A stretch of DNA of 59,955 bases from a virus, in the IMG/VR virus record IMGVR_UViG_3300042326_001912, positions 1-59,955 of that record, one strand, 5' to 3'. Below, piece by piece: positions 20,201 to 43,788 of the stretch. The position numbers and the translations under genes are program-made. Below the pieces are notes generated by a model, which worked only from the letters and a program-made list of their open reading frames with translations, was not told the origin of the DNA and ran no database searches. Within the stretch, counting starts at the first letter, position 1, and each line of letters starts with the position of its first letter.

Positions 20201-22291
20201 CTTTGCATTTTTTATATTTTCTTTTTTACTAAAAAATTCTTTTAAGTCTTTTGTTGTATATAAACTTGATGTTGATCCTTTTCCTTGGAATGTCTTAAAA
20301 ACATTTCTTTTTTGAATGTAATTCTGAAGCGTTTTTCCTTTAACAAAAATATGGTTTGGTTGTTTATTCCAATCTAAATTCCAATTGCTCGGTAAATCTA
20401 TACCAATATTTGAATAATGTTTTGTTTGTGTCGTTTGTCCACTTGCATCTTTAATTTCATAAGTATACCCTAAATCACCATGAGTAAAATGAGTTTCTTT
20501 TTTAGCTTTATTTGATTTATTTTTTTTCTTTTTAGCTAAATATTCTGAAACTTGTTTTTCATCATCAACATCTATATTTTCACTTCCAGGAATTTTTTTA
20601 GACAACCATTCAGATACAGAAATCTTGCGTGTGTTTTGTGGCAAATCCAATGTTGAAAATAAATTTTGCCCTTCTTTGTTTTTTAATCTTTGTCTTCCTT
20701 TTATTGTTGCACTTTTTACTTCTCCAGCATTTCCTGGCATGTTTTCTTGATTGTACTTTTGTCTTACAACTTGATTTCTAGGCACAACCAACTCACCTGG
20801 CTCAAGCAAAGCTGGCACTTTATCTCCAGTTCCACTTCCAGGAACTATGCCACCTTTTTGCATCCTAAGAAAACCACCATCTGCTTTTCTAGCTGACCCT
20901 GTCTTTTTAATAGATGAAGTATCTGCACCAGCACCTTTTACAAAACCTGTGGCAAAAGAGCCAAGTCCTTGACCAATTTTTACGGCAGCAAGGGCAGTAA
21001 ATAATGGGAGTAAACCTTTAAGTGAATTGATTAATGACAAAACAGAAGTGGCAGCACCAATGAATGTATCAGCTAAACTTCTAAAGCCGGGGCTATTAAC
21101 AATACTTCTACCAACCTCAAAAAAGCTTTCCTTCAACTTCTGTAGTTTTACAGCAAGAGCATCCTGTGCTTGACCAGCATTAACAGCTAAAGACACACTA
21201 CCAGCTTGAGCTATACCCAATGCCTTCTGTGCAGTAGCAAATTCTTGAATAAGTGGGATAACCTTACTGATCTGCCTATAACCACCTAATTGCTCAACAA
21301 TGGCACTAAATCGGGGGTCTGTTGACCTTAGTTCAGAAAGTCCAGCAGATAATCTTTTGACTGCTTCATATGGACCAACAAACTGCTGTTCTAATCCAAC
21401 ATCTCCTAAAGCTCTAGCCTCTTCTGCTGTATACCTAAGATTTATACCAACTTCTTTTAGGGCGTTAGCCGTATCATTTCTTTGTATTCGTGTAAATATA
21501 GTTCGCAAACCAGTACCAATACTTTCGGCACTTTCTCTTGTCGTTTGTCGTACTGATGTAAATAAAGCTATAAGTTCATTTAATTGACCACCAGCAGCTT
21601 TAAATGCACCCCCTGTCTTTCTAATCGCCTCAATAATGTCTGATGCTTCAACAGCAAACTCACCCGCTACAGCATTAACAGAACCTAAAGCTGCACCAAG
21701 GTCTTTTGCCTCAACCTTAAACTGCTTCATAATAGCAATAGCACCTTCAGTCGTATCTTTGAGGTTATCAAAGTTTGGTGCTAAAGCAGCTTGTGCCATT
21801 GCTTCTAAGGCATCTTTAGTTTCAGAAAGAGTTAAGTTAGCTTGTTTTAAAACTACTGCTACGCCAATCAAATCCTTGCTAGAAACACCTAAATTTTTAG
21901 ATAAATTTGTTACTTGATCACCTACAGCAGCAACATCTTGTACTGTGTCTGAAGAAACTTGTCTTAATCTAATCATTTCTCTATCAAAATCTACGGCAGC
22001 AGAAACGGCTTCTTTCATTGTGTTAGTAAAAGCAATGATTGAGCCAGCAGTAACGGCAAATGCAGCAAACCTTTTGGCAGCAAAGCCAGCTTGTCTACCA
22101 AAGTTCTCCATAGAATCAGTAGCTTCAGAAATTTGAGACTTTATTTGCCCCAATCCAGAAGAACTATTTCTATCAATACCAAGCTTTATTTGCGTGTTTG
22201 TATTTAATGCTGAATTTATCTGACTTGAAGCATTTCTCAAAGAAGCACTATTGAGAGCAATATTCAATTGAGCAGTTAAATTAAAAGCCAT
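8207..22291 (-). CDS. giant tape-measure protein (4,694 aa)
   Basis: Sets tail length by spanning the tail tube and is usually involved in DNA ejection. The N-terminal ~450 residues match the TP901-type tape-measure domain: Ala-rich helices (GRQAGFAAKRFAAFAVTAGS), 'NLSKNLGVSSKDLIGVAVVL', 'SIGTGLRTIFTRIQR' and 'VEQLGGYRQISKVIPLIQEF'. The remainder is mostly helical and coiled coil (very Gln/Ala/Arg-rich near 1805-1990), with a hydrophobic Gly/Ala segment near 2225-2275. Six Gly-rich insertions carry a (T)DTVPAMLTPGEFVVN-type motif near residues 485, 1680, 1725, 3210, 4235 and 4480. At the usual ~0.15 nm per residue the tail would be near 0.7 micrometres. Start: GAGGTATAAAAATG. A terminator lies just upstream, so a promoter of its own or readthrough is needed. 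It occupies about a quarter of the window, among the largest tape measures I know of. Confidence 0.93.
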   Translation of the reverse strand: MAFNLTAQLNIALNSASLRNASSQINSALNTNTQIKLGIDRNSSSGLGQIKSQISEATDSMENFGRQAGFAAKRFAAFAVTAGSIIAFTNTMKEAVSAAVDFDREMIRLRQVSSDTVQDVAAVGDQVTNLSKNLGVSSKDLIGVAVVLKQANLTLSETKDALEAMAQAALAPNFDNLKDTTEGAIAIMKQFKVEAKDLGAALGSVNAVAGEFAVEASDIIEAIRKTGGAFKAAGGQLNELIALFTSVRQTTRESAESIGTGLRTIFTRIQRNDTANALKEVGINLRYTAEEARALGDVGLEQQFVGPYEAVKRLSAGLSELRSTDPRFSAIVEQLGGYRQISKVIPLIQEFATAQKALGIAQAGSVSLAVNAGQAQDALAVKLQKLKESFFEVGRSIVNSPGFRSLADTFIGAATSVLSLINSLKGLLPLFTALAAVKIGQGLGSFATGFVKGAGADTSSIKKTGSARKADGGFLRMQKGGIVPGSGTGDKVPALLEPGELVVPRNQVVRQKYNQENMPGNAGEVKSATIKGRQRLKNKEGQNLFSTLDLPQNTRKISVSEWLSKKIPGSENIDVDDEKQVSEYLAKKKKNKSNKAKKETHFTHGDLGYTYEIKDASGQTTQTKHYSNIGIDLPSNWNLDWNKQPNHIFVKGKTLQNYIQKRNVFKTFQGKGSTSSLYTTKDLKEFFSKKENIKNAKSILINSINADQKYDIDPQVSNSLEPAFANINNLINKFHDKEEGNQNFGITAFSKNKKIIRVPKNTGGSVNRQRFMEGEEVTHRKAFLDNSFNPGMKLKSALQDTPRIIFKRQPKEYEKFPNMDHTSPHFEQFSEMFVGSRKASQFKRAVEYQRLYQEALKNNDVESANKYDKLNKLPANMRLLAAAKALPSAQEKARTNSFEDGNFDYEKNLLVNYSGKKTTTRHELGAHAAAYGASKEGSPLANSLFGSIGRRMGAYGKGSGETTLISEMQAHTIQSAKQKDKINSLKEFISSEKMAKLYKSEAHGTLADSMQKGSEIPTAGVLGGRHKDIEIDVLKRMMQDAYGDNPEVLAEKMSLLNPSDSSNRVNFGALFADSKETKRYAFGGNVGRQMFADGDKATAKPQSFEEFSKGLNPKQLADFKEKIKSAKQIIVNARTSGSMKLKSVGFNFLGTKFNMIPNKDLADKGSAKSKDGKPTYDLKGVKSLDELLSKIPPNYSEELRAKIGRAQDKFLGTKNIKDLKFAYDFGDKRGPLNIQLEKDVIKFGSIASFPWKPKTRKEKRTEELRIATERNARKKAENIDKSRQKSETASGLSSLISSIDEENQQNKFYGIARDTKVFEGSDQYKELQKKLALDRQRREGRGLPNSTESVEPENLIGINENYKAIQPISGTSPQAQKLRMQMEEREFQGPIIGIAKNQKTKKEPRVKKTESERYKLARTQSAPRQEKTLFDESELSKIGTYQTQEQKFKDNADKIKRFRDAASESARVKFNLNPRQQRRAIANENLADNLMSLRSKGTGKPIVSQAQAVAPAPAPASIAAQATNRNSAVESVILKALAGKQSEFWKTLREKVGDNESINKALASLQDQGKVVGDPNKIGFYLLAEKNKVAKTRKTKPVVSEPITTTSTRAPSPQIPEDSYNPYGKPKKPRAKKNTASSAQQSNFYNAQESEYQKLLDSINAQSRSKKVSRFASGGLVPGTGNSDTVPMDLPEGSFVIRKSSVNKIGADNLAKASRFANGGIVPALLTPGEYVYSPEEASKIGSSKLHAMNKFAKFARGGPIGLGRSGKFDPNNPDDIKKLKETLEEQLRYEDPNKDENTVQIEVKQNTDEIQRRAQQYTSDENARQQAETTVNSRNALVARQRGRVGASQQNVNAARSNVQSATTARDSYIDEANTQRGLVASNRQEATRQQARITSLTARGASATDPRLIAANAALIAATTAEATARNLQARATRNAISANNQVVANTNTLNGLLVTHGQEVRNLTRAENAATTAVQGLEAATLKAEGSAQLLDEYQQDAAGKVLLAGKVIGETKPLSGRGSMENILKRKEADYEKQTGRKAGKNERETLKGDALSEYRTASEKQLRAKAVQSGKPISELNLQATADQYTREFSEGKRKANYNKQGEIIGDRSLAGDLTGNARRGKTNTDYTAEGDLTSKGKVKDFASRAIFGAKRTDFEAGSEGDQQFKESRGSTLANRLTTAAVGASFLSERIKSSGGTVAGIVSKGEGDTVKVDEGAASSFKSAQAFGAALSSASTYAAVAGQSLAKYGLVVAGVGAGLAGIVGAFEGYHNGIKQAEAEIREAKIAQALNNLQNIFERVSNGLLEVNDSTLRKISENQKVVSQENATKAYEESGGNNSRFMKALNTISFGLTGTDVNQKKYNEALSKSSKETNAAQIGPLTNVLNKYSEQIGKDAALKIKSGGGDISTTNFEDIKGGLLKDLRSSGGGAGAEQIAKIASAQDISIADAEKQFIKTLQESFQAEKIKSVTTKAVQENARAINSMQSLSNAVNAAAASADSFSSKLDTNSSLFEGSIGSTKLTSFAERSGGSTPDFAKFNMAITESAGLLGAYGQEFKSQGNAVNAASQILPDILAQSVANPISGKETATQITDALKEGLKARGITGAAADQVVSSVGGKVSSEDFTKLLAEAGGDVSKATQKLLSDIRDPLISAFTEIDNKLTEAGNKYISGLEDLAKRQKAIGDQIGRLSELRSRSRSFAANEIQRLPGAQQGVAENINLQGARNDFSEQQQRLTGFGAGAAENPAAIASRLKNTQQQIRVQEEKVLNTNKSTNGGAEFRNAALELTKLKSQASNLNDALKNLTDQSKKLEAAQAKLAQVRQNIDEKRTLGRRLLTQSPEEQQKMLQGQAVFNQVQARGGSLQGMSTEQNAILFDFLDNFGAAGKKIQDQILDANGYGAGKDDKAEEKALVAEQARIFAQQEEAQRQIIANQQSLQQDYFSNLDSRNEKFYSELQKFIQEMQKNTLIAEKGKEQQKAAQIKDVQKEGKFLGESGFNTKEDFEKLNTYKGQVEDLAKNKQEQKRLAEANSKSIRTRIKTDDNNVITNTTDIESDLVKQGGYKASEATKIREITQEKLSEGNNASDSLRLAKEQFQQQRGDELNAQQTKIQDNFKASGIEEKLNSLVQKLAGNEISFVQFDRALASVKELQLGVGEGLSTAAIGAEARIKALNEAINGLGGIQQLPNAEAKPQVSAFAVGGSVFKPRGTDTVPAMLTPGEFVVNRSATQQNLPLLQSINSGKTSYLSGGGKVGYYEDGATPVENKPLNYNQEFIESDEYKNATKTKYLQVNSFSGDLESKAFKLQKDKTNNDYLKESNVIFGSFRGLTSTINKAISNSNEKENISKIYSKNFTTSANDFIKERKDIKELGIDGLYNHNDFAYDLELKNPTASILDFFNKQAEKDASSRNTGINSFESQKEKLKNKIAAKKSLTNALGGGLSILSGGILNLTPTYSEFDNFFPTTKLGKKQKEVETSSKDYVDFALGVKQKGDPEQMDYTQDVANARKQFDKRKAEERQKIIDEQQKLKNEKEGQFKKDTSGKLDTSNVLDKQGVIAKTKDIEKQKTKLKESGIQGDYVNSGSINEVGAQNVDKFIKEKGAKEDNYFFRRKGSPEAIAKIYLQREAQAQAIIGKMKLIQNDPNINLEKIDPKVSFATGQKELQKLINGQETAIDKKSLSNISPGQKKIVGSFITMNSFESAATSKGPEMDSYIETYGKAINKDPQVLIEKLIKAKEKRSDISGDPEFITAQAQGIFEALMFLDREAKANKVFANRNQIKKGKGLLGVLEEKSEKNIKSFTKFGKLKGNIDDKGLGNVDFGAKDPTEVDFNTTNFRTAIPPQSIEDIKKLASSKNGINNNLLTDLGATASISNYGYLNFPTVKDDVVLGLEKDGGLFKVNSFPKQDAEGKTTFERQAKIALLENKNTYQQLVEISKQIKGTPSVDLKGPSANVQANPNQNVNTFDPNGDPAQQIKQIQKEKQNAKAIEAKETKTTRRDVKNLNKIENPRFNVGQRVPTRDEFQNDTVDLFKNFVELKNTLYRQKSKELIVGQDSDKIVNTDQSLYEGEKEAQYGNNLLASSFKYFTRDPNAQKLDYSIREISTYFPIEEPYTYKLNRYPELLAKIANFYKFGEQTEGSPEYVKSVAKLKNDAEVDTKALSVSVQNAKKMEDYYDSLIQQNNLLLEPPTAPTPVGFDPTRFATQNSQIPIYRATGGNVPSYRPNPNPSYFKPKGTDTVPAMLSPGEFVINAGATAKHGDLLSAINSGQDVGYSATGGLIEYLAYGDNATSFNKRLKNAGITQKGMMEAIQSGDQQQIYEMNLKAGDAQRNSRNEALSKNLEKQLGFNFFKGSDANKKRGVERIGDAGNYGEGPQEVGSYAIETKPIQIAKIEAQAQKKQKSQQQMTMPLRPPTQQTTTTPPDPKDKKPDTTGAATTTQTQSIGEIEQLKAKMAALQEQQDAMANEELYFFKGGMPTSSSDTIPAMLTPGEFVVNARSSSKNASLLHAINTGKDVEGFANGGTVGYYAGGKTGGGGKTSSLLLQAAITFNNGTSRFDAAISRMNRPDGGSNNNNQINIAKSSFEELSRILKTEIKIGSGPIDKFNNAVTQFGTNLTGFNSGFSSSLEKFKTYADELNAAISRIPGTLNLQIIGNLNASLNVSFDVNSVYMAVTDATTSLKGWITSEISRQITDEMA

Positions 22292-28056: not shown

Positions 28057-29856
28057 TTAAAGCTTCTTTAAAATTAAATAATCGTCTGATGAATTAATTA
28101 CACTAAGTTTTTCAGATTTTTTATAAATATCTGCAACTTCTTGGTCTGCATTGACTATAATTAAGCAGTCCTTAGACCTTAAAAATGTTTCTTGTTTGAC
28201 CAATGAAAAATCAATAAGTTCTTGAGACAAGCCTTTATAGTTAATCAGTAGAGTTCTAGGGTTCTCTTCTGGTGCTTGAAAATCATCTTCTTTATCTGTA
28301 AGAATAAAGTTTTCATAGCTAAAATTCTTTATTGTTGTTTGTAATTGCTCTTTAGATTTATTTTTATATTCATCTACTCTAACTACTCCAAGACCCCTTT
28401 GGCAAAGAGCAATGGTGGTTTGTAGACCTTCTGAGCTTATATCTAAACAATACGAGTTGCTTGCTGCCCAAACAATTTCTCTTACTGCTTCAACTGAAAG
28501 CCCACCATCAACATTAGGTAGAGGAACATATTGCATTCTAAGTCTAAGAATGTTTTCTTCAAATGTATAAAGAAAAGGAACAATATTTTCTTTTTCACAA
28601 ATATAAGAAAACTCTGCACCTTCTTTGTAATCATCTAGAACTTTTTGTGCAAAATCTTTGCTAACAAAATATAAAGGTGCATCGTCTAGTTCGTCAATAT
28701 CTGCAATTTTATAAGAAAGTTGAGAATGCTTTGTCTTTAGAGATGACTTATTTATCTGATCAAATATAGTTATCTTTGCTTGACCTGTTTTAATTAATGG
28801 CCAAAAATCAATCATTATATTTATATTTTTTTCTAGCCTTAAATTACCCTTACATATTAACGCATAGTCATTTCCTTCTGCGATAAATTTTTCTAATACA
28901 GATTTTAAATTTGCACCCAACATATATTCTTTTTCTTTAGTCCATTTAATTTTTTTAAATGATTCTTCAGTAGTTACACTTTCTCTTCCAATAACATAAG
29001 CTTTAACTTTAATTGCATTTTTTTCTGAAGAGTTTATTGGAGTGGGATTGCCAATAAATTTAGCTGAATCAGAAATTGCTTTAAATAGCTCTTCTTGCGT
29101 TACTTTACCACTAAAATAATTAATTACTTCTCTATGATTCCAACCAATTTCTGTCCAACCAACAATATAATTAAAAATTCTATCTACAACAGATAATGGG
29201 TATGGAACACCTTTTGGTCTGCCAAATCTATGTATCCATTTTAAAAATGTTAGACAAACTGCTTTGCCACCATTCTGCCTAAACTTTTCTTGAATGTATC
29301 CTTCTTCAGAACCAAATCCACGAAATGCTGGATGAAATTTTGGCCAAGCATCTTTTCTACAGCAATAAAGCCCACCACCCTGCATTGGAATTTCAAATTC
29401 TTCTTCTGAAATAGCTCTAGGATCATTGCCCCAAGTTCCATACATATGACCTCTCCAGCCTGGATCAAAATGCGTAGATGTGCTTTTTTGATCATCGTAA
29501 AGAAGTGGTCCTTGAATTAAATTTTTTGTATTTTCGTTTTGCTTTAAATACTCTTTAAGTTTTTTAATTGAGTCTTTGACTAACAAAACATGGCAATCAA
29601 CACACATAACAAACTTACCTTTTGCAAGTTCAAATACTGCATTTTTAGCTGGTGCTGTTCCCTGACAATCAGGTCTATGATAATAGGAAGCACCAACACT
29701 TTCGCACAATTTTTTGGTGTCTTCACAAAGTTTTGGCTTTGTATCTACTACTAAAAGCTCAACACCTTCTAGATCATGATAAGCTTTTAGAGATTGAAGT
29801 GTAAAGTAAACACCATCGAAATCATCGTATGTAGGCATACCAATAGTTAAAAACAT
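28057..29856 (-). CDS. GT2-type glycosyltransferase with a second unknown domain
   Basis: 599 residues. Residues 1-~260 form a GT-A fold glycosyltransferase of family 2: 'FLTIGMPTYDDFDGVYFTLQ' at the start, VELLVVDTK, a metal site VDCH at 86-89 (the usual DxD has become DCH), and 'FRGFGSEEGYIQEKFRQNGG' near 178-197, the acceptor-side acidic motif of GalNAc-transferase-like enzymes. Residues ~280-599 are separate; 'YCLDISSEGLQTTIALCQRG' followed by 'GVVRVDEYKN' resembles a Rossmann-type nucleotide or SAM-binding start, but I cannot name it. AAAGGAGG precedes the ATG. It lies inside the neck operon, so modification of virion proteins is more likely than of DNA; the substrate is unknown. Confidence 0.75.
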   Translation of the reverse strand: MFLTIGMPTYDDFDGVYFTLQSLKAYHDLEGVELLVVDTKPKLCEDTKKLCESVGASYYHRPDCQGTAPAKNAVFELAKGKFVMCVDCHVLLVKDSIKKLKEYLKQNENTKNLIQGPLLYDDQKSTSTHFDPGWRGHMYGTWGNDPRAISEEEFEIPMQGGGLYCCRKDAWPKFHPAFRGFGSEEGYIQEKFRQNGGKAVCLTFLKWIHRFGRPKGVPYPLSVVDRIFNYIVGWTEIGWNHREVINYFSGKVTQEELFKAISDSAKFIGNPTPINSSEKNAIKVKAYVIGRESVTTEESFKKIKWTKEKEYMLGANLKSVLEKFIAEGNDYALICKGNLRLEKNINIMIDFWPLIKTGQAKITIFDQINKSSLKTKHSQLSYKIADIDELDDAPLYFVSKDFAQKVLDDYKEGAEFSYICEKENIVPFLYTFEENILRLRMQYVPLPNVDGGLSVEAVREIVWAASNSYCLDISSEGLQTTIALCQRGLGVVRVDEYKNKSKEQLQTTIKNFSYENFILTDKEDDFQAPEENPRTLLINYKGLSQELIDFSLVKQETFLRSKDCLIIVNADQEVADIYKKSEKLSVINSSDDYLILKKL

Positions 29857-30356: not shown

Positions 30357-30887
30357 TTATCTTGGGAAAAATGTTCTGCCTTCATTGCTAGTATAATAAA
30401 CTTGATCTCTAGAACCAGCAAATATTCTAAACGGACTCATTATAGCAGCACCAGCTACTAATCCAACTCTTGCCGTTTGATATTCTAGTTTAACTTCTTC
30501 GTAAACAGAACACCAACCCTTTTCTAGTAATTTCATTCTACCATCCATAGTTCCACGCAAGTCAATAGAAGAACTACCATCTCTAATAGCAATTCCTTGA
30601 CCAACAGCCCTTCTTGTCTCGCCACGCTCTATTAAACATGCTGATTTTATAGTCACTAAATTTATAAAGTTGTCATCTCTAGTAGTCGCCCTATCTACTG
30701 GACTAGGATTAATTGTAAGTGCTTGAATATCAACTTGAAAATTATTTGCAAATCTTAATTCTGAAGTAACTAGTTGAGCAGCAACAGCAATTACTTGCGT
30801 AAGTCGTTTGTCTGTATAGAGTTGTGGAGAAACTAAATCGTCTAGTAAAACTCTCAATAATGTTATGAATTCTGCTTGCCAGTACAT
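30357..30887 (-). CDS. head-tail connector / adaptor-like protein
   Basis: 176 residues, mostly helical at the N-terminus (MYWQAEFITLLRVLLDDLVS, then 'QVIAVAAQLVTSELRF') with a beta hairpin in the middle and a Tyr/Arg-rich end (DQVYYTSNEGRTFFPR). Helical adaptor proteins of the HK97 gp6 / SPP1 gp15 kind have this size and shape and are encoded at this point of the neck module. 'IRDGSSSIDLRG' may be the loop that contacts the portal. It has only a weak ribosome site (AGAGG). A TAATACACC motif lies in the short gap upstream, making it the likely first gene of the neck transcript. Confidence 0.55.
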   Translation of the reverse strand: MYWQAEFITLLRVLLDDLVSPQLYTDKRLTQVIAVAAQLVTSELRFANNFQVDIQALTINPSPVDRATTRDDNFINLVTIKSACLIERGETRRAVGQGIAIRDGSSSIDLRGTMDGRMKLLEKGWCSVYEEVKLEYQTARVGLVAGAAIMSPFRIFAGSRDQVYYTSNEGRTFFPR

Positions 30888-30936: not shown

Positions 30937-33900
30937 TTAATCGGTAAATGGTGGCACTATAACTATATTGCCAACAGACAGCGTAATTATATGGGTATTA
31001 GATAATGTAGATCTAAATTCATATGACCACCTTCCTGCCCCAATTTGTGCTAATTCTTCATTGCTAAGTTCAATTCTTAAAGATGTTCCATTAAGTAGCT
31101 GTGCTCGTTTAATGAATGTTGGTCTAGAATCAATCATAAAGTCTGTAGTAGAACCAGTTAGATCTGGCCAATCAACAGAAGTTATGTCTATCGACCTTGA
31201 TTCTTCTGTTAAGTAGTCATCTGTGAGTCTTAGTTCTATAGGATCTTCTGGATTAATTGGTATTGGATTTGTTAATGCTGGAACTCCTACTCCAGAAGTA
31301 GCACACCTTGTACTTACTTTAACATCTACATTTTCATATTCTTCTGGATTAATTGCAGTAGCACCTAAAAGTTCAGACCCACAATAAAACTTAATCGCAC
31401 CTCTAAATGATGTTGGTATTATTCCAGTAAATAGATAATTTCCGTTTGTAAGATTTACAAATCCTGTTGAATGTGAAACGCCATAATTTGTTCCATCACC
31501 ATTTATTAATTGTGCATATATGTTTTGACAATTTTCATATCTTTTTCCCAAAGAAAGACTAACCCCTAAAGTAAATCCTTCTGATGGATTAGGATTTAAG
31601 TTAGATGTAAATACAGCTATTTCATAACCAAGATATTCTTCTGAAGTAGGCGTTGGCGTAGGAGTAGGTGTAGGCGTTGGGGTAGGTGTCGGTGTTGGAG
31701 TTGGTGTAGGAGTTGGCGTTGGAGTCGGTGTTGGAGTTGGAGTCGGGCTAGGTGTAGGACTCGGTGTAGGTGAAGGCGTTGGGCTTGGGCTTGGAGTCGG
31801 ACTAGGCGTTGGCGATGGACTAGGTGTCGGTGAAGGCGTTGGGCTTGGGCTTGGAGTCGGGCTAGGTGTAGGACTCGGTGTTGGACTAGGCGTTGGGCTA
31901 GGCGTTGGACTAGGTGAAGGTGTAGGGCTAGGCGTTGGACTAGGAGTCGGACTAGGAGTCGGTGAAGGCGTTGGACTTGGTGTAGGCGATGGCGTTGGAC
32001 TAGGAGTCGGGCTAGGTGTTGGACTCGGAGTCGGTGAAGGCGTTGGCGAAGGAGTCGGGCTAGGTGTTGGGCTTGGTGTAGGCGATGGCGTTGGACTAGG
32101 AGTCGGGCTAGGTGTTGGACTCGGAGTCGGTGAAGGCGTTGGACTAGGGCTAGGTGTTGGACTCGGAGTCGGTGAAGGCGTTGGACTAGGACTTGGTGAA
32201 GGCGTTGGGCTAGGCGTTGGACTTGGAGTCGGTGAAGGCGTTGGGCTAGGTGTAGGCGAAGGCGTTGGACTAGGACTTGGTGAAGGCGATGGACTAGGGC
32301 TAGGACTTGGTGAAGGTGACGGACTGGGGCTTGGGCTAGGCGATGGCGATGGACTAGGGCTAGGACTTGGTGAAGGCGATGGACTAGGGCTAGGACTCGG
32401 TGAAGGTGACGGACTGGGGCTTGGGCTAGGCGATGGCGATGGACTAGGGCTAGGACTCGGTGAAGGTGATGGACTGGGGCTTGGACTAGGCGATTGATTA
32501 ACACACTCCCAATCAACACATATTTGACCTTCTGCACAAGGAGTTGCACAACCCCCACAATTTTCAATATCTATTCTTATATTTATGCATATTCCATCAC
32601 AACAATATTCTCCTGATGCACATTGAACTCCACAATCTCCACAATTTGAAAAATCTGTATTTAAATTTATACATTCACCAAAACAACACACTTTTTCTGC
32701 TTGATCACAACAAACTCCAGAACAACAAGAACCAACACATGGAAAAGCATCACATGCACCACAATTATTAGGATCACCCATAGTGTTTGTACATTGACCA
32801 TTACAGCATTCTTCATCAGGACCACAAACATTTCCACAAGAACCACAGTTTTCTGAATCTAAATTTAGATCTTTACATTCTCCAAAACAACACGCATAGG
32901 GATCACCAAATTCATCACTCGCACAAGGAATATATGAACCGCCACAAAATGGACTGGTACATTCTCCCTCTATACATGTAGCAGGAGGAAGACAATCCCA
33001 TGTACAAGCACCACAATTATCATTGTCAGTACTTATATTTTTACATTGACCATCACAACATGTTTCTCCTATAGCACAGACATTTCCACAACTGCCACAA
33101 TTATTATTATCACCTTTAAAATATGTTATTTTTTTCTGTAAAGAAACTGGATTTACACAACATAGAGCAACTGAATCTAAAACGCATTGACCCTCACAAC
33201 AAGTTCTTCCTGCTGCACAAACTACTCCACAATCACCACAATTAGCATTATCTATTGTTTGATCTATACAAATTCCATTGCAACATATTCCCTGACAAAT
33301 AGTTCCACAGCTACCGCAATTTAATCTATCTGTTAATACTTCTTTACATATTCCATCGCAACACATTTCATCTTGAGCACAAGCAGTGCAACCACCACAA
33401 TGTAATTCATCGCTTAATATATCTATACAGCTTCCGTCACAACATGCTTCTCCTACGCCACAGGTTACTCCACAAGCACCACAATTTGCATCGTTTTCTA
33501 AGATATCTATACAGATTCCATTACAGCAAGCCGTTCCAGTACCACAAACAGTTCCACAAGCACCACAATTTGAATTATCAGTTAAAGTATTTGTGCAACC
33601 ATTGCCACAACATTCTTCTTCTTCAGCACAAGTAATTCCACAACCACGACAATTTGCATTAGTATTAAGTGTTACGCATTGCCCATCACAACAGAGTCTT
33701 CCTGCTTCACAAACTATTCCACAATCACCACAATTTGAACTATCTGTTAGAGGATCTATACAATTTCCATTACAACATATTTGACCAATAGGACAAATAT
33801 TTCCACAGCTACCACAATTTGAATTATCTGTATTTACATTGACACATTGATTATTGCAACATCCCAAAGGGTATACGCATGAATTATTACAGACATCACA

Positions 33901-34545
33901 TTCTGCATTATCTGAAACGCACTCTCCAGCACATGGATGAGTACCAGTAGGACAGGGAGGCGTACATACGCCAAGATTGCATATTTGACCAGGAGGACAA
34001 GCATTTTCACAACCAGCACAATTTGCTGCATCATACCAAATATTTGAACAACCACTATTACAACATGTTTCATTATTTTCACAAACTGTGCCACAAGTTG
34101 AGCAATTCCATCTTTGTAATCTAGGAACACATGCACCCCCACAACAATGTTCATCTGGAGCACATACATGACCACAAGTTCCACAGTTGTTTTCATCAGT
34201 CAAATAATATTTTTGAACACCATTACAACAGATTGTGCCAATTATCCAATTGTCACAACTGCCACAATTTTGATCATTTGTTAACAAATTTACACATTCA
34301 TATGCAAATGGTCCTGGTATTACATCTTGAAAAGCACAACAAGTAAGACCTTCGCCACATGATGGAAAACAACCATCATCTCCTGATCCATCTGGTATAC
34401 AATCATAAGTTACCTGCTCACCAAGAGTTCCAACCCTTTGAGGTGATGGTGGACACACACAACTACCTTCACTGCATGGGTTTACAAGAACCCAATATCC
34501 TGAGTAAGTGTCGAATGAATAAGTACAACTTTGAGAACAACTCAT
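30937..34545 (-). CDS. giant Cys-rich repeat protein with (S/T)P stalk and C-terminal anchor
   Basis: 1,202 residues in three parts. Residues ~1-680 contain about 18 tandem Cys modules of ~28-45 residues, typified by CCNGxCxxxxTDxxNCGxCG and CxxGxxCCxGxC, resembling Stig1-type and myxobacterial Cys-rich repeats; they should form disulfides once outside the cell. Residues ~684-967 are a pure Ser-Pro/Thr-Pro stalk. Residues ~970-1,202 hold an Ig-like domain and then a ~100-residue end domain ([19 protein letters not shown] ... [16 protein letters not shown] ... [16 protein letters not shown]) nearly matching the end of the protease at 38038-40038. AGGAG precedes the ATG. No signal peptide, as expected for a virion protein. 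Probable surface-exposed adhesin; receptor unknown. Confidence 0.75.
31645..32495 (-). repeat. Ser-Pro/Thr-Pro coding repeat of the first Cys-rich protein
   Basis: About 850 bases of 6-base units (plus strand GGNNNN types such as ggcgtt, ggagtc, ggtgaa, ggacta) encoding alternating (S/T)P. A longer 90-base periodicity is visible: a unit starting tgaaggtgacggactggg occurs at 32311 and again at 32401. The region is much richer in GC than its surroundings, with C on the coding strand. Confidence 0.9.
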
Positions 34546-34554
34546 TTTAAACTC

Positions 34555-37500
34555 CTATATATGACCAACTGGTCTAAAATAATATGTTGTGTTGGGCAAA
34601 AGACCAGTGACAGTAATGCTATGTGTTGTAGTTAGTTGAGTATTTTCTATTGTTGAATTTTGATAACCATAATTTGGATAAGTCGATGGAGATAAAACCT
34701 GTGTTGTTCCATATAAAACACGACTAGTTAATGGTATCTCACTTCGCCAAGTAACTGTTACTGATGTTGTTGTTCTTGCAGAATAATCAATGTTGTAAAT
34801 TAAAGGACTTGGAATAGTTGTAGGTGAAGGCGTTGGACTAGGAGTCGGGCTAGGCGATGGCGTTGGACTCGGTGTCGGTGAAGGCGTTGGACTAGGAGTC
34901 GGGCTTGGTGTAGGACTCGGTGTTGGGCTAGGCGTTGGCGATGGACTAGGAGTCGGGCTTGGACTCGGTGTAGGTGAAGGCGTTGGGCTTGGGCTTGGAC
35001 TAGGTGTTGGACTAGGCGTTGGACTTGGAGTCGGGCTAGGCGATGGCGATGGACTAGGTGTAGGACTAGGTGAAGGTGTAGGGCTAGGCGTTGGACTCGG
35101 TGTCGGTGAAGGCGTTGGACTAGGAGTCGGGCTTGGTGTAGGGCTCGGTGTAGGTGAAGGGGTTGGACTAGGGCTTGGAGTCGGGCTAGGCGATGGCGAT
35201 GGACTAGGTGTAGGACTCGGTGTAGGACTCGGTGTAGGTGAAGGGGTTGGACTAGGGCTTGGAGTCGGGCTAGGCGATGGCGATGGACTAGGTGTAGGAC
35301 TAGGTGAAGGTGTAGGGCTAGGCGTTGGACTCGGTGTCGGTGAAGGCGTTGGACTAGGAGTCGGGCTTGGTGTAGGGCTCGGTGTAGGTGAAGGGGTTGG
35401 ACTAGGGCTTGGAGTCGGGCTAGGCGATGGCGATGGACTAGGTGTAGGACTCGGTGTAGGACTCGGTGTAGGTGAAGGGGTTGGACTAGGGCTTGGAGTC
35501 GGGCTAGGCGATGGCGATGGACTAGGTGTAGGACTAGGTGAAGGTGTAGGGCTAGGCGTTGGACTCGGTGTCGGTGAAGGCGTTGGACTAGGAGTCGGGC
35601 TTGGACTCGGTGTAGGTGAAGGCGTTGGACTAGGAGTCGGGCTTGGCGTTGGGCTTGGAGTCGGGCTAGGCGATGGCGATGGACTAGGTGTAGGACTAGG
35701 TGAAGGTGTAGGGCTAGGCGTTGGACTCGGTGTCGGTGAAGGCGTTGGACTAGGAGTCGGGCTTGGTGTAGGACTCGGTGTTGGGCTAGGCGTTGGCGAT
35801 GGACTAGGAGTCGGGCTTGGACTCGGTGTAGGTGATGGACTAGGACTAGGTGAAGGCGATGGCGAAGGTGATGGACTCGGTGAAGGTGACGGACTGGGGC
35901 TAGGCGATGGACTAGGGCTTGGGGGCGATGGGGGCGATGGTGGTGGAGATGCAGGACAATATGGAAGAACAGTTACTGTTGCCGATCCAGAAAGCTCACT
36001 TTCTATTGTGTTTTGAAAAATTGTAACAGATGAAGTAACATTCGCCCCTAAACTCTGCCCTGTGCTATTAACAAAAGTATCGCTTGTTTCTAATTTTAAA
36101 TAACCATAAACTGTATCATTAATGTTTTCTGGTATTACATTTGCAACTTGAACAAGAGAATACTGAGACAACATAGTTCCACTTGCTATAGTAGTAGATG
36201 TTTGTGGAACATTTACACCACCAGTATTAACACTATAACTTATAGTAATTTGAACTTGACAACTTGATGCACCAATACAAAAATTAGATTCGCCATCCCC
36301 ACAAACTGTTCCACCACTAAGACACTCAGATCCAGGGCATCTACATGCACCATTTGAAAAACAACCAGCAGCACCACTGCCACATTGATTATTTGTCAAA
36401 TCTGCTGCATAAGTATTTGGAAGTTCTTCTTCTGTACATGCATTTGAGGTTATGGTTGATTCACAAAATCCTTTAGTTTTAAATGGTCCTGCACTACCAC
36501 TGTCAGACGGAAGACTATTTAAATATATCTTTTCACAACCAGTGCAACCACAAGATGAAGAAAATTTTGTCCACCCAAGAAAACAATCGCCAGTATTTGC
36601 ACCAGCAAAAGCTTCTGCATCTGCTTTTGTGCTAAAATAAAATGTATCGCCATCTTCAACTGATGGACTGGGATTAGATGTTAAAAGTGCAGTACATGCT
36701 GTTGAACATATTAAATAATCTTCAAAAGGACAATCGCCACAAATTTGACGATTACAAGTATTGCTACCAACTTGCATTCCAGTTGCACATGAACCAAATT
36801 GACTATTTGCTGGACCAACAGAATAACATGCTGGACTATCACCACCAGGAGTTGCAGCCCAAACTAAAGCATTACATTCTTGTTGTGGTAGATTATTAAG
36901 ACATTGACCACCACAACATGTTGCATTAGCTCCACAAGGAGCACACCCAGCACAATGTTCAGCAGTTCCAGTACTAACACACACCCCATCACAACATATT
37001 TGATTAGTCTGACATGGAACACCACACCCACCACAATTGTTCCAATCTGTGCCATTTACATTTATGCAAATACCTATTGATTCATTAAAAGGACAACATG
37101 TCCTTCCTGCTAGACAAGGCTCACAACCATTCCTTCCTGGTCCAGTACCACCACAATGTGCATCAGTTTGAAGTGTCACACATTGCCCATCGCAACATCC
37201 TTGCCCTGCTGGACAACACACCCCATTGCAACCTTCTTGCCCTGCTGGACAACAAACTCCATCGCTACATGACTCCATTGCTGCACAACATATTCCAACG
37301 CAACAAGGGCCAGCACATGGAGGGGCATCACATGCACCACAATGATTCTGGTCTTCATTAAGATTTGTACATACGCCATTACAACATGCATTAACTCCAT
37401 TGCAACTTGTTGGATTACAAGTAGTTGAAGTTGTTGGTGCAGCAGTACTTGAAGTTGAAGTTGAAGTACTAGTAGGTGCTGGTATACAATTATAAGTAAC

Positions 37501-38034
37501 TGTAGGTTGAGACACTTCGGTTGCACTAGCTGGTCGTTCTCCATCGCAAATACAACCGTACAAACATGTTGTGCCTTCCATATAATAATACATTCCTGGT
37601 GAAATTTCAGACAGATTAAAAGTGCAAGAACTAGGAGAACATAATGGTGCTTCAGTAGTTGATCCTTCAGCACAACCTTCAGTAGTCCATCCACAACCCA
37701 TATCACAATTAGTACCATTAGAAAGAAAACCAACAATCTGACATGTAGTACTTCCTTCAGCACAATTACCAGAACATGTTCCAGTAGAATATATTTGTCC
37801 TTGTGAGGTTGGCAAATTTGCAAGTATTGGATTTAAATTTTCATCTGATATTGGTGGTGGTGATACACTACAATTACAACCACCAACCCCATAAACCTTC
37901 AATTCTTCATTCTCTTCCCAAATTAAATTCCCATCTTTTTCTGTTGCAGTATAGGAACATGCCCCCAACAGTAAAAGTTCTCCCTCATAAGATGGTTTAA
38001 AGTTTATGTTTAATGGATCAATACAATTAGACAT
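34555..38034 (-). CDS. giant Cys-rich protein with very long (S/T)P stalk and FN3-like end
   Basis: 1,159 residues. Residues 1-~580 are Cys-rich; the part around 205-350 repeats the [20 protein letters not shown] / [17 protein letters not shown] pattern of 30937-34545, while the first 200 residues use different Cys spacings and a Thr/Ser linker. Residues ~585-690 form a beta domain without Cys clusters. Residues ~697-1,073 are a Ser-Pro/Thr-Pro stalk of ~376 residues, the longest here. The last ~85 residues ([20 protein letters not shown] ... [18 protein letters not shown]) are a fibronectin-III-like domain, not the RLTDDY anchor of the two neighbours. GGAGATTAAAAA precedes the ATG. Likely a virion adhesin; partner unknown. 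Confidence 0.75.
34815..35945 (-). repeat. long (S/T)P coding repeat with higher-order units
   Basis: About 1.13 kb of 6-base units encoding (S/T)P. A mark sequence, cgatggcgatggactaggtg, recurs at 35041, 35275, 35509 and 35671, giving spacings of 234, 234 and 162 bases, so the array grew by duplication of large blocks and not only by single-unit slippage. Confidence 0.9.
35041..35508 (-). repeat. two identical 234-base tandem copies
   Basis: 35041-35274 and 35275-35508 are identical by base-by-base reading. Each codes for 78 residues of (S/T)P. Because the third base of these codons is free to vary, identity over 234 bases points to a very recent duplication or active homogenisation, or to an assembly artefact. 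Confidence 0.85.
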
Positions 38035-38037
38035 TTT

Positions 38038-40038
38038 TTAATCTCCAAATGCTGGCGTGATAATTAAATTGCCAACACTAATTGTCACAGTATGACCACT
38101 AGGAAAAATAGATCTAATTTCATAAGACCATCTTCCAGCACCAATACTTTGTAAGTTTGTGCTGCTAAGTTCAAGTCTTAAAGTTTTGCTATCAATATAA
38201 GAAATTGTCTTTGAAAAATTTATTTTGCCATCAACATAAAACATTGATGTTACTTCACTTAAATTTGGATAATCATCAGAAATAAAGTTTATACCCCTAC
38301 CATCTATTGCATAATAATCATCTGTTAATCTTAAGTCTAATGTTTCGCCAGCATTATATTTTATGTTGTTTTCTGGTATAGCAACTGGCGTTGGGCTAGG
38401 CGTAGGAGTCGGTACTGGCGTTGGTGTAGGCGTTGGCGTAGGAGTCGGTGTTGGACTCGGTGTAGGCGTTGGTGTTGGCGTAGGAGTCGGTACTGGCGTT
38501 GGTGTAGGCGTTGGCGTAGGAGTCGGTGTTGGACTCGGTGTAGGCGTTGGTGTTGGCGTAGGAGTCGGTGTTGGACTCGGTGTAGGCGTTGGTGTTGGCG
38601 TAGGAGTCGGTGTTGGTGTTGGTGTTGGTGTTGGTGTAGGCGTAGGTGTTGGACTAGGAGTCGGACTAGGTGTTGGCGTAGGAGTCGGGGTGGGAGTTGC
38701 ACCACCCAAACTTCTAAATCCAGCTTGATAATATAATTTTCCATCTATAGTTAATGTTGGCTGGCTTATTCTTGGGTCTGTAACACTAATTGAATAAATA
38801 GTAGGTGTCGATGGTGTGGTTGATGATGCACTATCATAAGCCTTTATCTTCATTAAAGATGCAACTCTATCTATTCTTGCAGCTATACCATCAAATCTTC
38901 CTCCAGCAAAAACCAAACCTATAATTTTTTTAACGCCATTAATAACTTTAACTAATGCAGATCCAGAATCTCCAGAAAAAACTGGCCAAAAAGAATTATT
39001 ATAACTAGGCTGATATTTAAATTGTATGCAATCAGAATATGAAACTCCAGAAACACTAGATCCTCTTATATCGTCATAACCAATTGTAGTTGAAAAACCT
39101 ATAGATTGTATTTGTAATTTACAAGTATTCCAACCTTTTGGGCCAGTAGTTCTACCAGTACTATAAACTTCTGTTGGATTAAATAGTAAATCATCTATCT
39201 CTTCTGTTGTTGCAAAAGGATATTCTAAAGAATAACTATCTGGATTAGTTGTTGGGGTATGAATATGATTAATATGACTTATATTTTCTGGATAATAAAG
39301 TGCAGCATCAATATAGTTAGCATTTGTTAAACTAACTGGATAATATCTTTTAGTAGAACCTATACGGATAACTTTTTTAGTGCTGTCATTATCAAAACTA
39401 AAAAGTCCTGGTCTATGTTTTTTTTTGTCAATAAACCATTCTAATTCATCATAAATATTATATGTATAATCTAATTCTTTTTGTGTGTCTCTATCTGATG
39501 CAATTATGAAGTCTGAAATTGCAACATGTGCATTAGTAACACCAACAACTTTATTGTCTATTTCATCTGTTGCCCAAAAACCAAGCGTTCCAACATTAGT
39601 GTTTATATAAGGTTTTGTTGTAAACCAACTCCCAGAATATTTATCTGGAAAACGAGATATTTCTTGACCACCTTGAAATGGTGTTATCATACCATAACTA
39701 CCACTTAATCTAGTAACATTTGTATTTGTAGAAGTAAAATTAAAATATTCTAGTGGTTGACCATATAAATCGTTGTAGCAAGCTAAACCTTTTATGGGTT
39801 CTGATTCTACAACATCTGTTATTATGTCAATACCATCTACACGAATAGTTTTTGGAAGTATTTCATTGTTTCCTAACTCATTTTCATTTAATTTTTTTAT
39901 TACATTAAAAACAACCCCAACTTTTCCAGTGTTAATATTATTTGTATGTTTAAAACCAAAAGAAACACCATGAACATCATCTGGTGTTAAGTCATATAAT
40001 TCTTGTATTTTATTCTTTATCTCATCAGTTAACTTCAT
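38038..40038 (-). CDS. trypsin-like serine protease with Pro-rich stalk and C-terminal anchor
   Basis: 666 residues from the ATG at 40036-40038 ([20 protein letters not shown]) after TTGGGAATAATA; a TTG 12 bases earlier is less likely. Residues ~1-90 look like a bacterial protease prodomain ([20 protein letters not shown]). The trypsin fold follows with all three catalytic residues visible: His171 in [10 protein letters not shown], Asp244 in NYIDAALY and Ser358 in [10 protein letters not shown]. Residues ~445-550 are a Thr/Ser-Pro stalk. The C-terminal ~100 residues ([19 protein letters not shown] ... [16 protein letters not shown] ... [16 protein letters not shown]) match the end of 30937-34545. 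The enzyme is therefore probably mounted on the particle. Targets could be host surface proteins or other virion proteins; the sequence does not say which. Confidence 0.85.
38384..38700 (-). repeat. Thr-Pro coding repeat of the protease stalk
   Basis: About 315 bases of 6-base units encoding (T/S/V)P. Two identical 78-base copies lie at 38401-38478 and 38479-38556, with a partial third copy after them. 78 bases is one third of the 234-base block in the neighbouring gene. Confidence 0.9.
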
Positions 40039-40040
40039 TA

Positions 40041-40325
40041 TTATTCCCAAGCAATATAAATTACACTCATGCTTGAAGATGGACTAGTTCCATCAGAAGG
40101 CATTGTTTCAGAACAAGTATTAGCATCTAAAACCCAAGTAGCTATTTGATTAATAGTTTGCATTTTATAAACACATCTCCCATAACAATCAGCACATTCT
40201 ATGAGCAACAACGAAGCTGCATTTACTGCTGCACCAACATAATTTGGTGGATAAACAGCACCTTGATCTGGAGCACAATCACATGCCATAAACAAACCCA
40301 CTTGTATATATGTAAGTACACTCAT
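40041..40325 (-). CDS. small Cys-containing protein upstream of the protease
   Basis: 94 residues from the ATG at 40325, or 82 from the second ATG ([20 protein letters not shown]); neither has a good ribosome site, so the start is uncertain. Cys pairs occur in [12 protein letters not shown] and NTC. A short hydrophobic stretch ([12 protein letters not shown]) is too short to be a clear membrane helix. The stop lies 2 bases before the protease ATG, so the two are probably co-translated. No family recognised. It could be a small tail or fibre accessory protein that adds to the Cys-rich theme of this region. Confidence 0.5.
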
Positions 40326-40381: not shown

Positions 40382-40669
40382 TCATTCTGCATTGGCAGTT
40401 TCCTTTTTATTCCTTTTGAGTTCGTGTAATTCCCTAGTGTTCAACAATATCTGATTAAGTATGTCCATAGTGTTTTCTTGGCTTTTGACCACACTTTCTA
40501 GACCATTTTCCAACCTATCTATAAATTTGATGTGTCTATCATGCAAAGGAAGGATGATCTTCTCACCCAACCAAGTAGATGCTCTATAGGTTGTCCAAAC
40601 AAAGAATATTAAAAAGCTGCAAGAAACACCTAATCGTTCAATTAATAGGATAAAGTCTTTATCATCCAT
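40382..40669 (-). CDS. small membrane protein with coiled coil, holin candidate
   Basis: 95 residues from the ATG at 40667-40669 (MDDKDFILLIERLGVSCSFL), which has GGGGG 8 bases upstream; a TTG 15 bases before is a poorer start. One transmembrane helix (GVSCSFLIFFVWTTYRA, residues ~14-30) is followed by an amphipathic helical region with a coiled-coil look (FIDRLENGLESVVKSQENTM) and a charged end (KRNKKETANAE). Small phage proteins of this form are often annotated as holin-like. No endolysin is nearby in the window, so the lysis role is uncertain; a membrane-anchored assembly factor is also possible. Confidence 0.55.
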   Translation of the reverse strand: MDDKDFILLIERLGVSCSFLIFFVWTTYRASTWLGEKIILPLHDRHIKFIDRLENGLESVVKSQENTMDILNQILLNTRELHELKRNKKETANAE

Positions 40670-40704
40670 TGTTCTAACCCCCAAATAATGTAGTTGTGCC
40701 TACA

Positions 40705-41273: not shown

Positions 41274-41957
41274 CTATGCTTTTATGATGAAATTAACAAC
41301 TATCGCTGGTGGAATAATCCCGAATGCAGTTCCACCTCCAGTACTGGAATTTGTAACTGTATGATTATGATTAGCACTTTCAGTTCCAGTAGTAGTACCA
41401 TGACTATGATCTTGATGTGCTCCTTGCGTATTAGGGGTTCCATTAGCACTTCTATTCGTGCCATCTCTTAAGCCATATGATCCAAACGATCCCACATTTC
41501 TTCCCCAACCATGCGTATGATCAGCAGACACTGTACCACTTGTTCCTGAGTGTGTATGATTAGCGGTTTGCGTTCCTACTGTGGCTGTATGAGTATGAGA
41601 AGCCATATTAGCTTCAGATAGTGTTGCGGTTTCTGCTCCTACATTTGACCCTAAAGTTCTAGTGGTTAAAGAAGTGCCTGTTCCTGCACAAATTGGAATC
41701 CTGCCTCTCATATCAGGCAAAGTAAAAGTGTCATTAGAATTGCCAGCACCAAAAGTTGTTCCTATTACTTTAAATAAATCGCCATAAGCTTTTCTGCTAA
41801 CAGTACTTCCATTGCATAAAAGCCATCCGTTAGGAACTACAGATCCAGCAAAAAATCTTATAACACCAATAGGAGTAATGGATGATTGTAAACCTTGAAA
41901 GGAGCTACCTTTAGGGGAGTTAGTTGGTATCGAATTATAAGAAAAAGATCCAGCCAA
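41274..41957 (-). CDS. tail collar domain protein, copy 3
   Basis: 227 residues. N-terminal arm (SFSYNSIPTNSPKGSSFQGL), then a phage tail-collar domain (FFAGSVVPNGWLLCNGSTVS, 'YGDLFKVIGTTFG', 'FTLPDMRGRIPI'), then His/Thr-rich tip repeats (SHTHTATVGTQTANHTHSGT, 'DHSHGTTTGTESANHNHTV') and the end FGIIPPAIVVNFIIKA. This is the MdpB/microcystin-dependent type found in phage receptor-binding fibres; the HxH pairs may bind metal inside a trimer, as in T4 short fibre tips. The start codon is TTG (41955-41957), with AGGTGA upstream, and the same junction is present before copy 2. Differs from the other copies mostly in the tip region. Confidence 0.85.
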   Translation of the reverse strand: MAGSFSYNSIPTNSPKGSSFQGLQSSITPIGVIRFFAGSVVPNGWLLCNGSTVSRKAYGDLFKVIGTTFGAGNSNDTFTLPDMRGRIPICAGTGTSLTTRTLGSNVGAETATLSEANMASHTHTATVGTQTANHTHSGTSGTVSADHTHGWGRNVGSFGSYGLRDGTNRSANGTPNTQGAHQDHSHGTTTGTESANHNHTVTNSSTGGGTAFGIIPPAIVVNFIIKA

Positions 41958-41964
41958 TTTTCAC

Positions 41965-42648
41965 CTATATCTTTATAATAAAATTAACAACTATGGATGG
42001 AGGCATAATACCAAATGCTGTTCCACTTCCAGTATTAGAATTAGACACCGAATGGTTATGGGTAGCACTTTCTGTTCCTGTCGTAGTAGCATGAGTATGG
42101 TTTTGCTGAATGCCACCAGTATTAGGTTGACCAGAACTACTAGCTGTTCCTGAGTCCATTAACCCATATGAACCAGATGTACCCGCAGTATGAGAAAAGT
42201 TGTGTACATGATTTGCACTTTCACCTCCACTTGTTCCTGTGTGTGTATGCGTAACACTTTCTGTTCCTACTGTAGTTGCATGTGTGTGAGAAGGCAAATT
42301 GGTTTCTGCTAATGTCGCTGTTTCTGAACCAAGAGTTGCTGCTAATGTCCTTGTGGTTAAACCAGAACCAGAACCAACACCAATAGGTAGTCTGCCTCTC
42401 ATGTCTGGTAAAGTAAATGTACTATTAGAATTTCCAGAACCATAAGTAGTGCCTATAATTTTAAATAAATCGCTAAAAGCTACTCTACTCACAATACTTC
42501 CATCACAAATCAACCATCCAATTGGAGCAACAGAACCAGCAAACATTTCTATTACACCAGTCGGTATGATTGGTGTTTTTATAGGCTCAAAAGAACTACC
42601 TTTAGGGAAGTTAGTGGGTATCGAATTATAAGAAAAAGATCCAGCCAA
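41965..42648 (-). CDS. tail collar domain protein, copy 2
   Basis: 227 residues, same architecture as the copies on each side: arm (SFSYNSIPTNFPKGSSFEPI), collar domain (MFAGSVAPIGWLICDGSIVS, FTLPDMRGRLPIGVGSGSGL), His-rich tip (SHTHATTVGTESVTHTHTGT) and FGIMPPSIVVNFIIKI at the end. The start is TTG at 42646-42648 preceded by AGGTGAAAA, the same as in copy 3. The bases around the two junctions (about 41930-41985 and 42622-42675) are almost identical, including the A/T-rich end of the preceding gene, which indicates duplication of a unit spanning the gene boundary. Likely a receptor-binding or fibre-tip protein. Confidence 0.85.
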   Translation of the reverse strand: MAGSFSYNSIPTNFPKGSSFEPIKTPIIPTGVIEMFAGSVAPIGWLICDGSIVSRVAFSDLFKIIGTTYGSGNSNSTFTLPDMRGRLPIGVGSGSGLTTRTLAATLGSETATLAETNLPSHTHATTVGTESVTHTHTGTSGGESANHVHNFSHTAGTSGSYGLMDSGTASSSGQPNTGGIQQNHTHATTTGTESATHNHSVSNSNTGSGTAFGIMPPSIVVNFIIKI

Positions 42649-42655
42649 TTTTCAC

Positions 42656-43342
42656 CTATATCTTTATAATAAAATTAATAGCTATTGATGGGGGCATAAT
42701 TCCAAATGGCGTTCCACTACCTGTGTTTGAATTGGTAACTGTATGTGTATGCGTAGCACTTTGAGTTCCGAATGTAGTTGAATGAGTATGACCAACAGAA
42801 TTACCACCTGTTTGCGGTGTTCCCGAACTACTAGCAGTAAGCGAATCTATAATACCATTTGTAGCTCCAGTAGTTCCTATCGGTAAACCATAGCTATGTG
42901 TATGATTTACACTTTGACCACCGCTTGTACCTGTGTGAGTATGATTAGCACTTTGTGTTCCAACTGTAGCGGTATGGGTATGTGGTGGAAGATTTGTTTG
43001 TGCTAATGTTACTGTCTCTGCACCCAAATTCGCCCCTAAAGTTCTAGTTGTCAAAGATGTGCCTGTTCCAGCACCTATGGGTAATCGCCCTCTCATATCT
43101 GGTAATGCAAATGTAGTATTGGAATTGCCAGCCCCATATGTGGTTCCAATAACTTTAAATAAATCGCCATAAGTCTTTCTACTAACAGTACTTCCATCAC
43201 ATATAAGCCACCCATTTGGAGCAGTAGAACCAGCAAACATTTGAATAATACCAGACGATATAGTAGTTTCTTGGACTGCTTGAAACGCAGAACCCTTTGG
43301 CGAATTGCTTGGTATCATGCCATAGTTAAACGCTCCAGCCAT
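42656..43342 (-). CDS. tail collar domain protein, copy 1
   Basis: 228 residues from the ATG at 43340-43342 (MAGAFNYGMIPSNSPKGSAF). This start aligns with the MAGSFSYN starts of copies 2 and 3, and TAATG makes it overlap the previous stop by 1 base; an earlier in-frame start would add 8 residues and overlap the upstream gene. Collar domain MFAGSTAPNGWLICDGSTVS and FALPDMRGRLPIGAGTGTSL; His-rich tip (PHTHTATVGTQSANHTHTGT); C-terminus FGIMPPSIAINFIIKI. It is the only copy with an ATG start, so it is perhaps the best translated. Likely forms homo- or heterotrimers with copies 2 and 3. Confidence 0.85.
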   Translation of the reverse strand: MAGAFNYGMIPSNSPKGSAFQAVQETTISSGIIQMFAGSTAPNGWLICDGSTVSRKTYGDLFKVIGTTYGAGNSNTTFALPDMRGRLPIGAGTGTSLTTRTLGANLGAETVTLAQTNLPPHTHTATVGTQSANHTHTGTSGGQSVNHTHSYGLPIGTTGATNGIIDSLTASSSGTPQTGGNSVGHTHSTTFGTQSATHTHTVTNSNTGSGTPFGIMPPSIAINFIIKI

Positions 43343-43788
43343 TAATAACTTCCCCCCATTACACAAACTTGCAATGCAGTAGTGCTAGCGGTAGTAGTAA
43401 CACTAACGGAGGCAAAAAGTTTAAATGTAGATGGTAAAACAAGAGGGTTGGCAAAAGTCAATGTAGTAGTAAATCCAGCAACAGTAGTTGAAGGAGTTAC
43501 AGCGGTCACAAGTATTTCTGTAAACAAATAAGCTGTAGTGCCATCCCATACCCATATGCCTACGATATTACCAGCGGTAGGTGCAGTAAAAGAAGTAGAA
43601 CAAGCATTGACTTGGATGCTATCAATTCTTAGGCCATTGGTAGAAGTCGGCACAACTTCGATGATGTTAGCTGCTGCAAGGCTAGCCGTTGCTGTTGGGC
43701 CTCTAGTTGTACATGCTGTTTGTGCTGCAAGTGTTTTTGCAACAAAGTATGGGGCTTGAGGAAAAATAGGTGTTGATGTCACTGGCAT
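43342..43788 (-). CDS. small beta-rich virion protein
   Basis: 148 residues, Thr/Ala/Val-rich with almost no charge: 'AAQTACTTRGPTATASLAAA', 'GLRIDSIQVNACSTSFTAPT', 'GIWVWDGTTAYLFTEI', 'TFANPLVLPSTFKLFASVSV'. The alternating pattern of strands suggests a beta sandwich. TGGAGG precedes the ATG, and its stop overlaps the start of collar copy 1 (TAATG). I do not recognise a family. The lack of charged residues and its position between collagen-like and collar fibres suggest a surface or fibre-associated protein. Confidence 0.6.
   Translation of the reverse strand: MPVTSTPIFPQAPYFVAKTLAAQTACTTRGPTATASLAAANIIEVVPTSTNGLRIDSIQVNACSTSFTAPTAGNIVGIWVWDGTTAYLFTEILVTAVTPSTTVAGFTTTLTFANPLVLPSTFKLFASVSVTTTASTTALQVCVMGGSY

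Follow-up and report, generated by a model that had tools for sequence, protein, structure and literature searches.

The end domain shared by two large viral proteins is itself a complete small phage protein, encoded in two adjacent copies (A and B), and near-identical viruses carry different heads on this two-gene slot. Both proteins are encoded in the window, by which we mean the whole analysed stretch of viral DNA (59,955 nucleotides, IMG/VR record IMGVR_UViG_3300042326_001912). On balance, we favor the view that A and B are neck-proximal structural sockets of a long-tailed phage, onto whose N-termini stalked heads acting on a surface or matrix have been grafted.

The three large genes of the window lie on the minus strand, as do the parts of them located below. 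An earlier note on this DNA had proposed that the protease gene (38038–40038, with its ATG at 40038) and the Cys-rich gene (30937–34545; STIG1 head, stalk, a domain termed BN and end domain B) share an end domain. This proved to be the case: their last 109 residues are homologous, with end domains A (38041–38367, 109 aa) and B (30940–31266) having 47 of 108 residues identical (44%) in a gap-free BLASTP alignment (E = 1e-33). The BLOSUM62 score of the pair is 244, against a mean of 27 (sd 5, maximum 51) over 1000 shuffles. The middle gene (34555–38034) encodes a Cys-rich head, a stalk and an end (34555–34818) that, just as the earlier note had described it, is FN3-like (PF16656, E = 2.9e-7 in Pfam). 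This end scored 28 and 30 against the two end domains, which is the shuffled level; the end domain is thus absent from the middle gene. For the Cys-rich protein, the proposed succession of head, stalk and end domain holds, but the stalk does not run directly into the end domain. Instead, BN (31267–31638), the first half of core protein B, intervenes. In the structural model BN is a second β-sandwich of about 100 residues, and it is kept in all B proteins.

To obtain relatives, IMG/VR was scanned with the end domain, its alignment and the connector-like neighbor of the slot; all relatives (L-numbered loci) are metagenomic contigs. Listing what is fused upstream of the end domain in viral and metagenomic sequences, a check that had been suggested from the sequence, revealed several types of head or none. 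End domain A has its own gene of 109–121 aa in L008, L009, L010, L011 and L069, while BN and end domain B together form a gene of 212–218 aa in most loci. Both A and B are headless in L008, L010 and L011, and A is headless in L009 and L069. The end domain is present in exactly two copies in all six viral contigs with a complete slot (records up to 221 kb) and in one copy in each of three records whose slot is cut by the contig end. The headless pair also occurs in three distant groups (L037, L038–L047 and L085–L088; B identity 41–51%), where the order is B, A′, directly before the connector-like gene. The borders of the slot are fixed as well. On the left is a small gene with one hydrophobic stretch (40382–40684, minus strand, 100 aa), 84–100% identical in closer relatives and about 55% in distant ones. 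On the right is the connector-like gene (30357–30887, minus strand, 176 aa), which is 56–100% identical and adjoins the pair in every group; it is called connector-like only by its position and neighbors. The presence of the headless pair in distant groups marks it as the conserved core; the simplest reading is that the heads were added to it.

A tblastn search of 50,697 named phages with the protease protein and a B core gave no relevant match. Bacterial genome contigs yielded a single match, L069, which belongs to a MAG of Proteobacteria and has a headless A gene of 109 aa; as a pointer to the host it is weak. The Cys-rich gene that follows this A gene ends after 101 codons.

The idea of a constant end with a variable head, put forward from the window alone, is strongly supported by the comparison of related genomes. 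In the window and in L003, the protease is on A and STIG1 on B; the protease is likewise on A in L004–L006. In L009, A is bare and B bears a Cys-rich/FN3 head: here a homolog of the middle gene joins end domain B through FN3. L012–L015, L017 and L019–L021 (L016 is cut) have STIG1 on A, with TTT-rich stalks, and a headless B. Since B of the window also carries STIG1, this head is found on both sockets. A different Cys-containing head is present on A in L018, a β-rich head on A in L007, and a seven-bladed propeller with FN3 on B in L048 (PF10282, E = 9.4e-43). On a tree of flanking genes, in which too much data is missing for gains and losses to be counted, the distribution of heads is patchy. 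We also observed an N-terminal module of about 50 residues that is common to many Cys-rich heads regardless of their C-terminal end (window 34555–38034, L009, L012, L015, L018 and L048).

The borders of the head cassette are precise. Up to position 40292, contigs L009 and L008 share 96.1% and 92.0% DNA identity, respectively, with the window, and in both the match resumes at 38353. Both are without the small gene of 82/94 aa, the protease and its stalk, and their junctions are identical; in L008, 38038–31552 is missing as well. The left junction is formed by the leader TACATATATACAAGTGGGTTTG (40293–40314, minus strand). This leader is nearly unchanged in L026, L080 and L069, where the start codon of A follows immediately; in the window it leads instead to the ATG of the cassette's first gene. 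The fused gene of L007 even retains a fossil ATG (...SPAPSMIKFVAGDTLDLR, compared with MITFVAGDTLDLR in headless A). The cassette border falls after the leader and before the A start codon, and its anatomy is direct evidence of grafting at the start codon or of the reverse, loss back to it. The small gene (40041–40289, minus strand; 82 aa from the ATG at 40289, 94 aa as listed) is present in protease loci L003–L006 and absent from L007–L021. As it co-occurs only with the protease head, it may be a partner of that head.

As to the location of A and B, the structural genes are arranged in the order TerL, portal, major capsid, collagen-like fibers, collar-type tail proteins, slot, connector-like genes and tape measure. 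The tape measure (window 8207–22291; 4694 residues, PhageMin_Tail E = 4.3e-23) predicts, at about 0.15 nm per residue, an extremely long tail of near 700 nm. The AlphaFold model of the B core shows two β-sandwiches with a mean pLDDT of 61 and low whole-model TM-scores. With this pLDDT 61 model, Foldseek detected BppU of TP901-1 (4v96_AH, probability 1.00, E = 9.6e-3) and 9mt4_H, a chain of the phage Bas63 connector structure (probability 1.00), as well as many small phage proteins and, in BFVD, several phage BppU-domain proteins. In lactococcal phages, β-sandwiches of the BppU type serve as anchors for baseplates and for neck whiskers. At the sequence level, phrog_1084 is weakly matched both by end domains (best E = 1.1e-4) and by the N-terminus of the TP901-1 neck passage structure (NPS) protein (E = 0.004). 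The Pfam BppU_N model (PF10651) matches TP901-1 NPS at 8.7e-29; window A, L085 B and L038 A′ were not matched at E up to 5–10, nor were the L008 and L037 proteins at 0.05. The end-domain profile, compared directly with TP901-1 BppU and NPS, found nothing. Because of this lack of a direct profile match we claim no sequence-level membership of A and B in the NPS family, which is unsupported by Pfam BppU_N and by profile comparison alike. Given the resemblance of the predicted fold to BppU, a modular decoration of the virion close to the neck is most likely. In the large proteins, hydrophobicity revealed no N-terminal hydrophobic signal or signal peptide. Taken together, gene position, the lack of a signal peptide and the BppU-like fold, modeled with modest confidence, suggest an attachment of the end domain to the virion. 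With their heads, A and B probably decorate the neck region of the virion and function in the manner of the neck passage structure.

Alternatively, A and B might be mounted on the tail tip, the tail tube or the capsid, with the heads being ordinary side or head fibers. We consider this unlikely but worth serious weight: BppU, the protein behind the 4v96 match, is a baseplate protein, the slot adjoins collagen-like and collar-type fiber genes, and Ig-like domains occur all over phage particles. However, in every group, even the most distant, the pair lies immediately beside the connector-like gene, where the neck and tail-completion genes begin, and a long way from the genes on the other side of the tape measure. 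It is more doubtful still that the large proteins are released at lysis, with heads acting on neighboring cells or matrix and an end domain that multimerizes or binds debris. The gene for a small hydrophobic protein beside the slot (40382–40684) and the expectation that Cys-rich heads would normally be oxidized only outside the cell fit such a release, yet the absence of a signal peptide speaks against it, as does the conservation of free-standing A and B across distant phages, locked between structural genes.

The Pro-rich stalk that had been described between head and end is found in all three proteins. The Pro-Thr stalk of the protease protein (38386–38697, 104 aa) and the Pro-Ser/Thr stalks of the middle gene (34819–35949, 377 aa) and the Cys-rich protein (31645–32493, 283 aa) are half proline. 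An extended polyproline helix rises 0.31 nm per residue; if fully extended, the three stalks would reach 32, 117 and 88 nm, respectively. The stalk of the middle gene contains a 234-bp tandem unit (35024–35634). Across 20.3 kb, one contig (L003/L022) departs from the window in a single respect: this stalk is 234 bp shorter, a difference of exactly one tandem unit, which possibly represents either stalk-length variation or an assembly effect. Stalk lengths also differ between L005 and L006, the heads of which are near-identical. That the large genes are assembly chimeras joined via low-complexity stalk repeats is very improbable: the long, repetitive DNA of the stalks is difficult for short reads, the head–stalk joins fall in low-complexity repeats and L003 differs from the window only within one stalk repeat, but the head–stalk–end joins recur in several independent assemblies with heads 87–100% identical (L003–L006), TTT-stalk heads recur in about ten contigs, and the fossil start codon is kept in the L007 fusion.

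If A and B are indeed neck-proximal sockets, the system could work as follows. A and B would be small structural proteins with BppU-like (Ig-like) β-sandwich domains, situated on the virion near the head–tail connector, and their N-termini would point outward. Foreign heads on Pro-Ser/Thr stalks, inserted between leader and start codon, would yield one fused protein. With its 104–377 residues (at full extension roughly 30–120 nm), the stalk would let the head reach the cell surface or matrix, where STIG1, Cys-rich and propeller heads would bind and the protease head would cut protein. We tentatively extend this to a two-socket tool holder at the neck, in which the start codon is a hot spot for cassettes of stalked enzymes and adhesins, reach is set by tandem-repeat copy number and one lineage comprises headless, protease-armed, Cys-rich-armed and propeller-armed particles of what is in other respects almost one virus; this extension is possible rather than probable. 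The sockets would represent a natural case of phage decoration, with interchangeable enzymes or binding heads fused N-terminally to a small structural protein, and they predict that a virion can be equipped to degrade protein. Since it is mainly the heads that distinguish the near-identical genomes, what each head contributes to attachment can be tested directly.

The protease head (38698–40038) comprises residues 1–447 and has a putative triad of His171, Asp244 and Ser358. These residues, in GVTNAHV, NYIDAAL and GDSGSALV, are invariant in all four close heads aligned. The phrog_20754 profile, annotated "protease", gave E = 1e-8 for the whole sequence, and matched the N-terminal and catalytic halves separately at E = 9e-5 and 6e-4, collinearly. 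A PDB profile search gave matches only at E of about 0.5, to 3C proteases in the nucleophile region, and AlphaFold with four close relatives of the head gave no usable model (pLDDT 29). The head is predicted to be proteolytic. In the literature searched, we found no counterpart of such a trypsin-like protease carried on a virion.

The Cys-rich repeats noted at first sight in the 30937–34545 protein are present and belong to a named family, STIG1 (PF04885). The head of this protein (32494–34545) contains 10 STIG1 stretches and 134 Cys, and matches both PF04885 (E = 1.8e-80, 266 bits against a curated cut-off of 24.1) and NF041328 (MXAN_6577-like, E = 8.8e-52) far above cut-off. As their names indicate, these families were named from plant and bacterial proteins, whereas here the head belongs to a protein of a phage. 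A scan for STIG1 heads, within the sensitivity of its patterns, matched only this phage lineage and contigs L097 and L098. The Cys-rich head of the middle gene (35950–38034) has a homolog fused to B in L009. In L048, a 1215-aa STIG1 protein (541–4188) has neither stalk nor end domain, its gene lying between an FN3-ended gene and the propeller–B fusion.

The earlier note knew of no described phage system of this form, which was too strong. The NPS proteins of 936 and P335 phages of lactococci, TP901-1 among them, likewise mount exchangeable heads by way of a stalk on an anchor that stays constant: their first 180 residues are nearly constant and have a BppU-like fold, as predicted here with modest confidence, followed by a coiled-coil fiber and seven classes of end, and they have been modeled as a collar at the tail–capsid connector (PMC6669499). 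Part of the statement stands, as NPS has no protease, Cys-rich or propeller heads and carries its anchor at the other end. The NPS anchor is N-terminal with a trimeric coiled-coil stalk, whereas here the anchor is C-terminal and the stalk Pro-Ser/Thr. NPS heads are of carbohydrate-binding or esterase type, in contrast to protease, STIG1 and propeller, and the anchor here also exists alone as a gene, with no direct sequence homology to NPS detected. The β-sandwich of TP901-1 BppU is similar by Foldseek to our modest-confidence model, with no Pfam match, but the receptor-binding part of BppU is at its C-terminus, while our heads are N-terminal to the anchor. Domain shuffling of phage neck and receptor-binding proteins is documented (PMC10684548); there too, exchange on a conserved attachment domain is recent, but that domain is usually N-terminal, whereas here it is the N-terminus that is exchanged, right where translation of an entire small protein starts. 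Different here are the C-terminal anchor with N-terminal grafting, the free-standing socket gene, the Pro-rich stalk, the kinds of head and, above all, the protease.

Two further observations concern the neighborhood of the slot. Among the neck genes is a glycosyltransferase-2-like gene (28057–29856, 599 aa, PF00535 E = 7.8e-11), which is 49–98% conserved in relatives and may modify virion proteins. We make no claim that it serves the stalks, as the gene is also conserved in L008, which is without these stalks. At 41274–43366 there are three tandem collar-type tail protein paralogs, 65–67% identical, with one to three copies in relatives.
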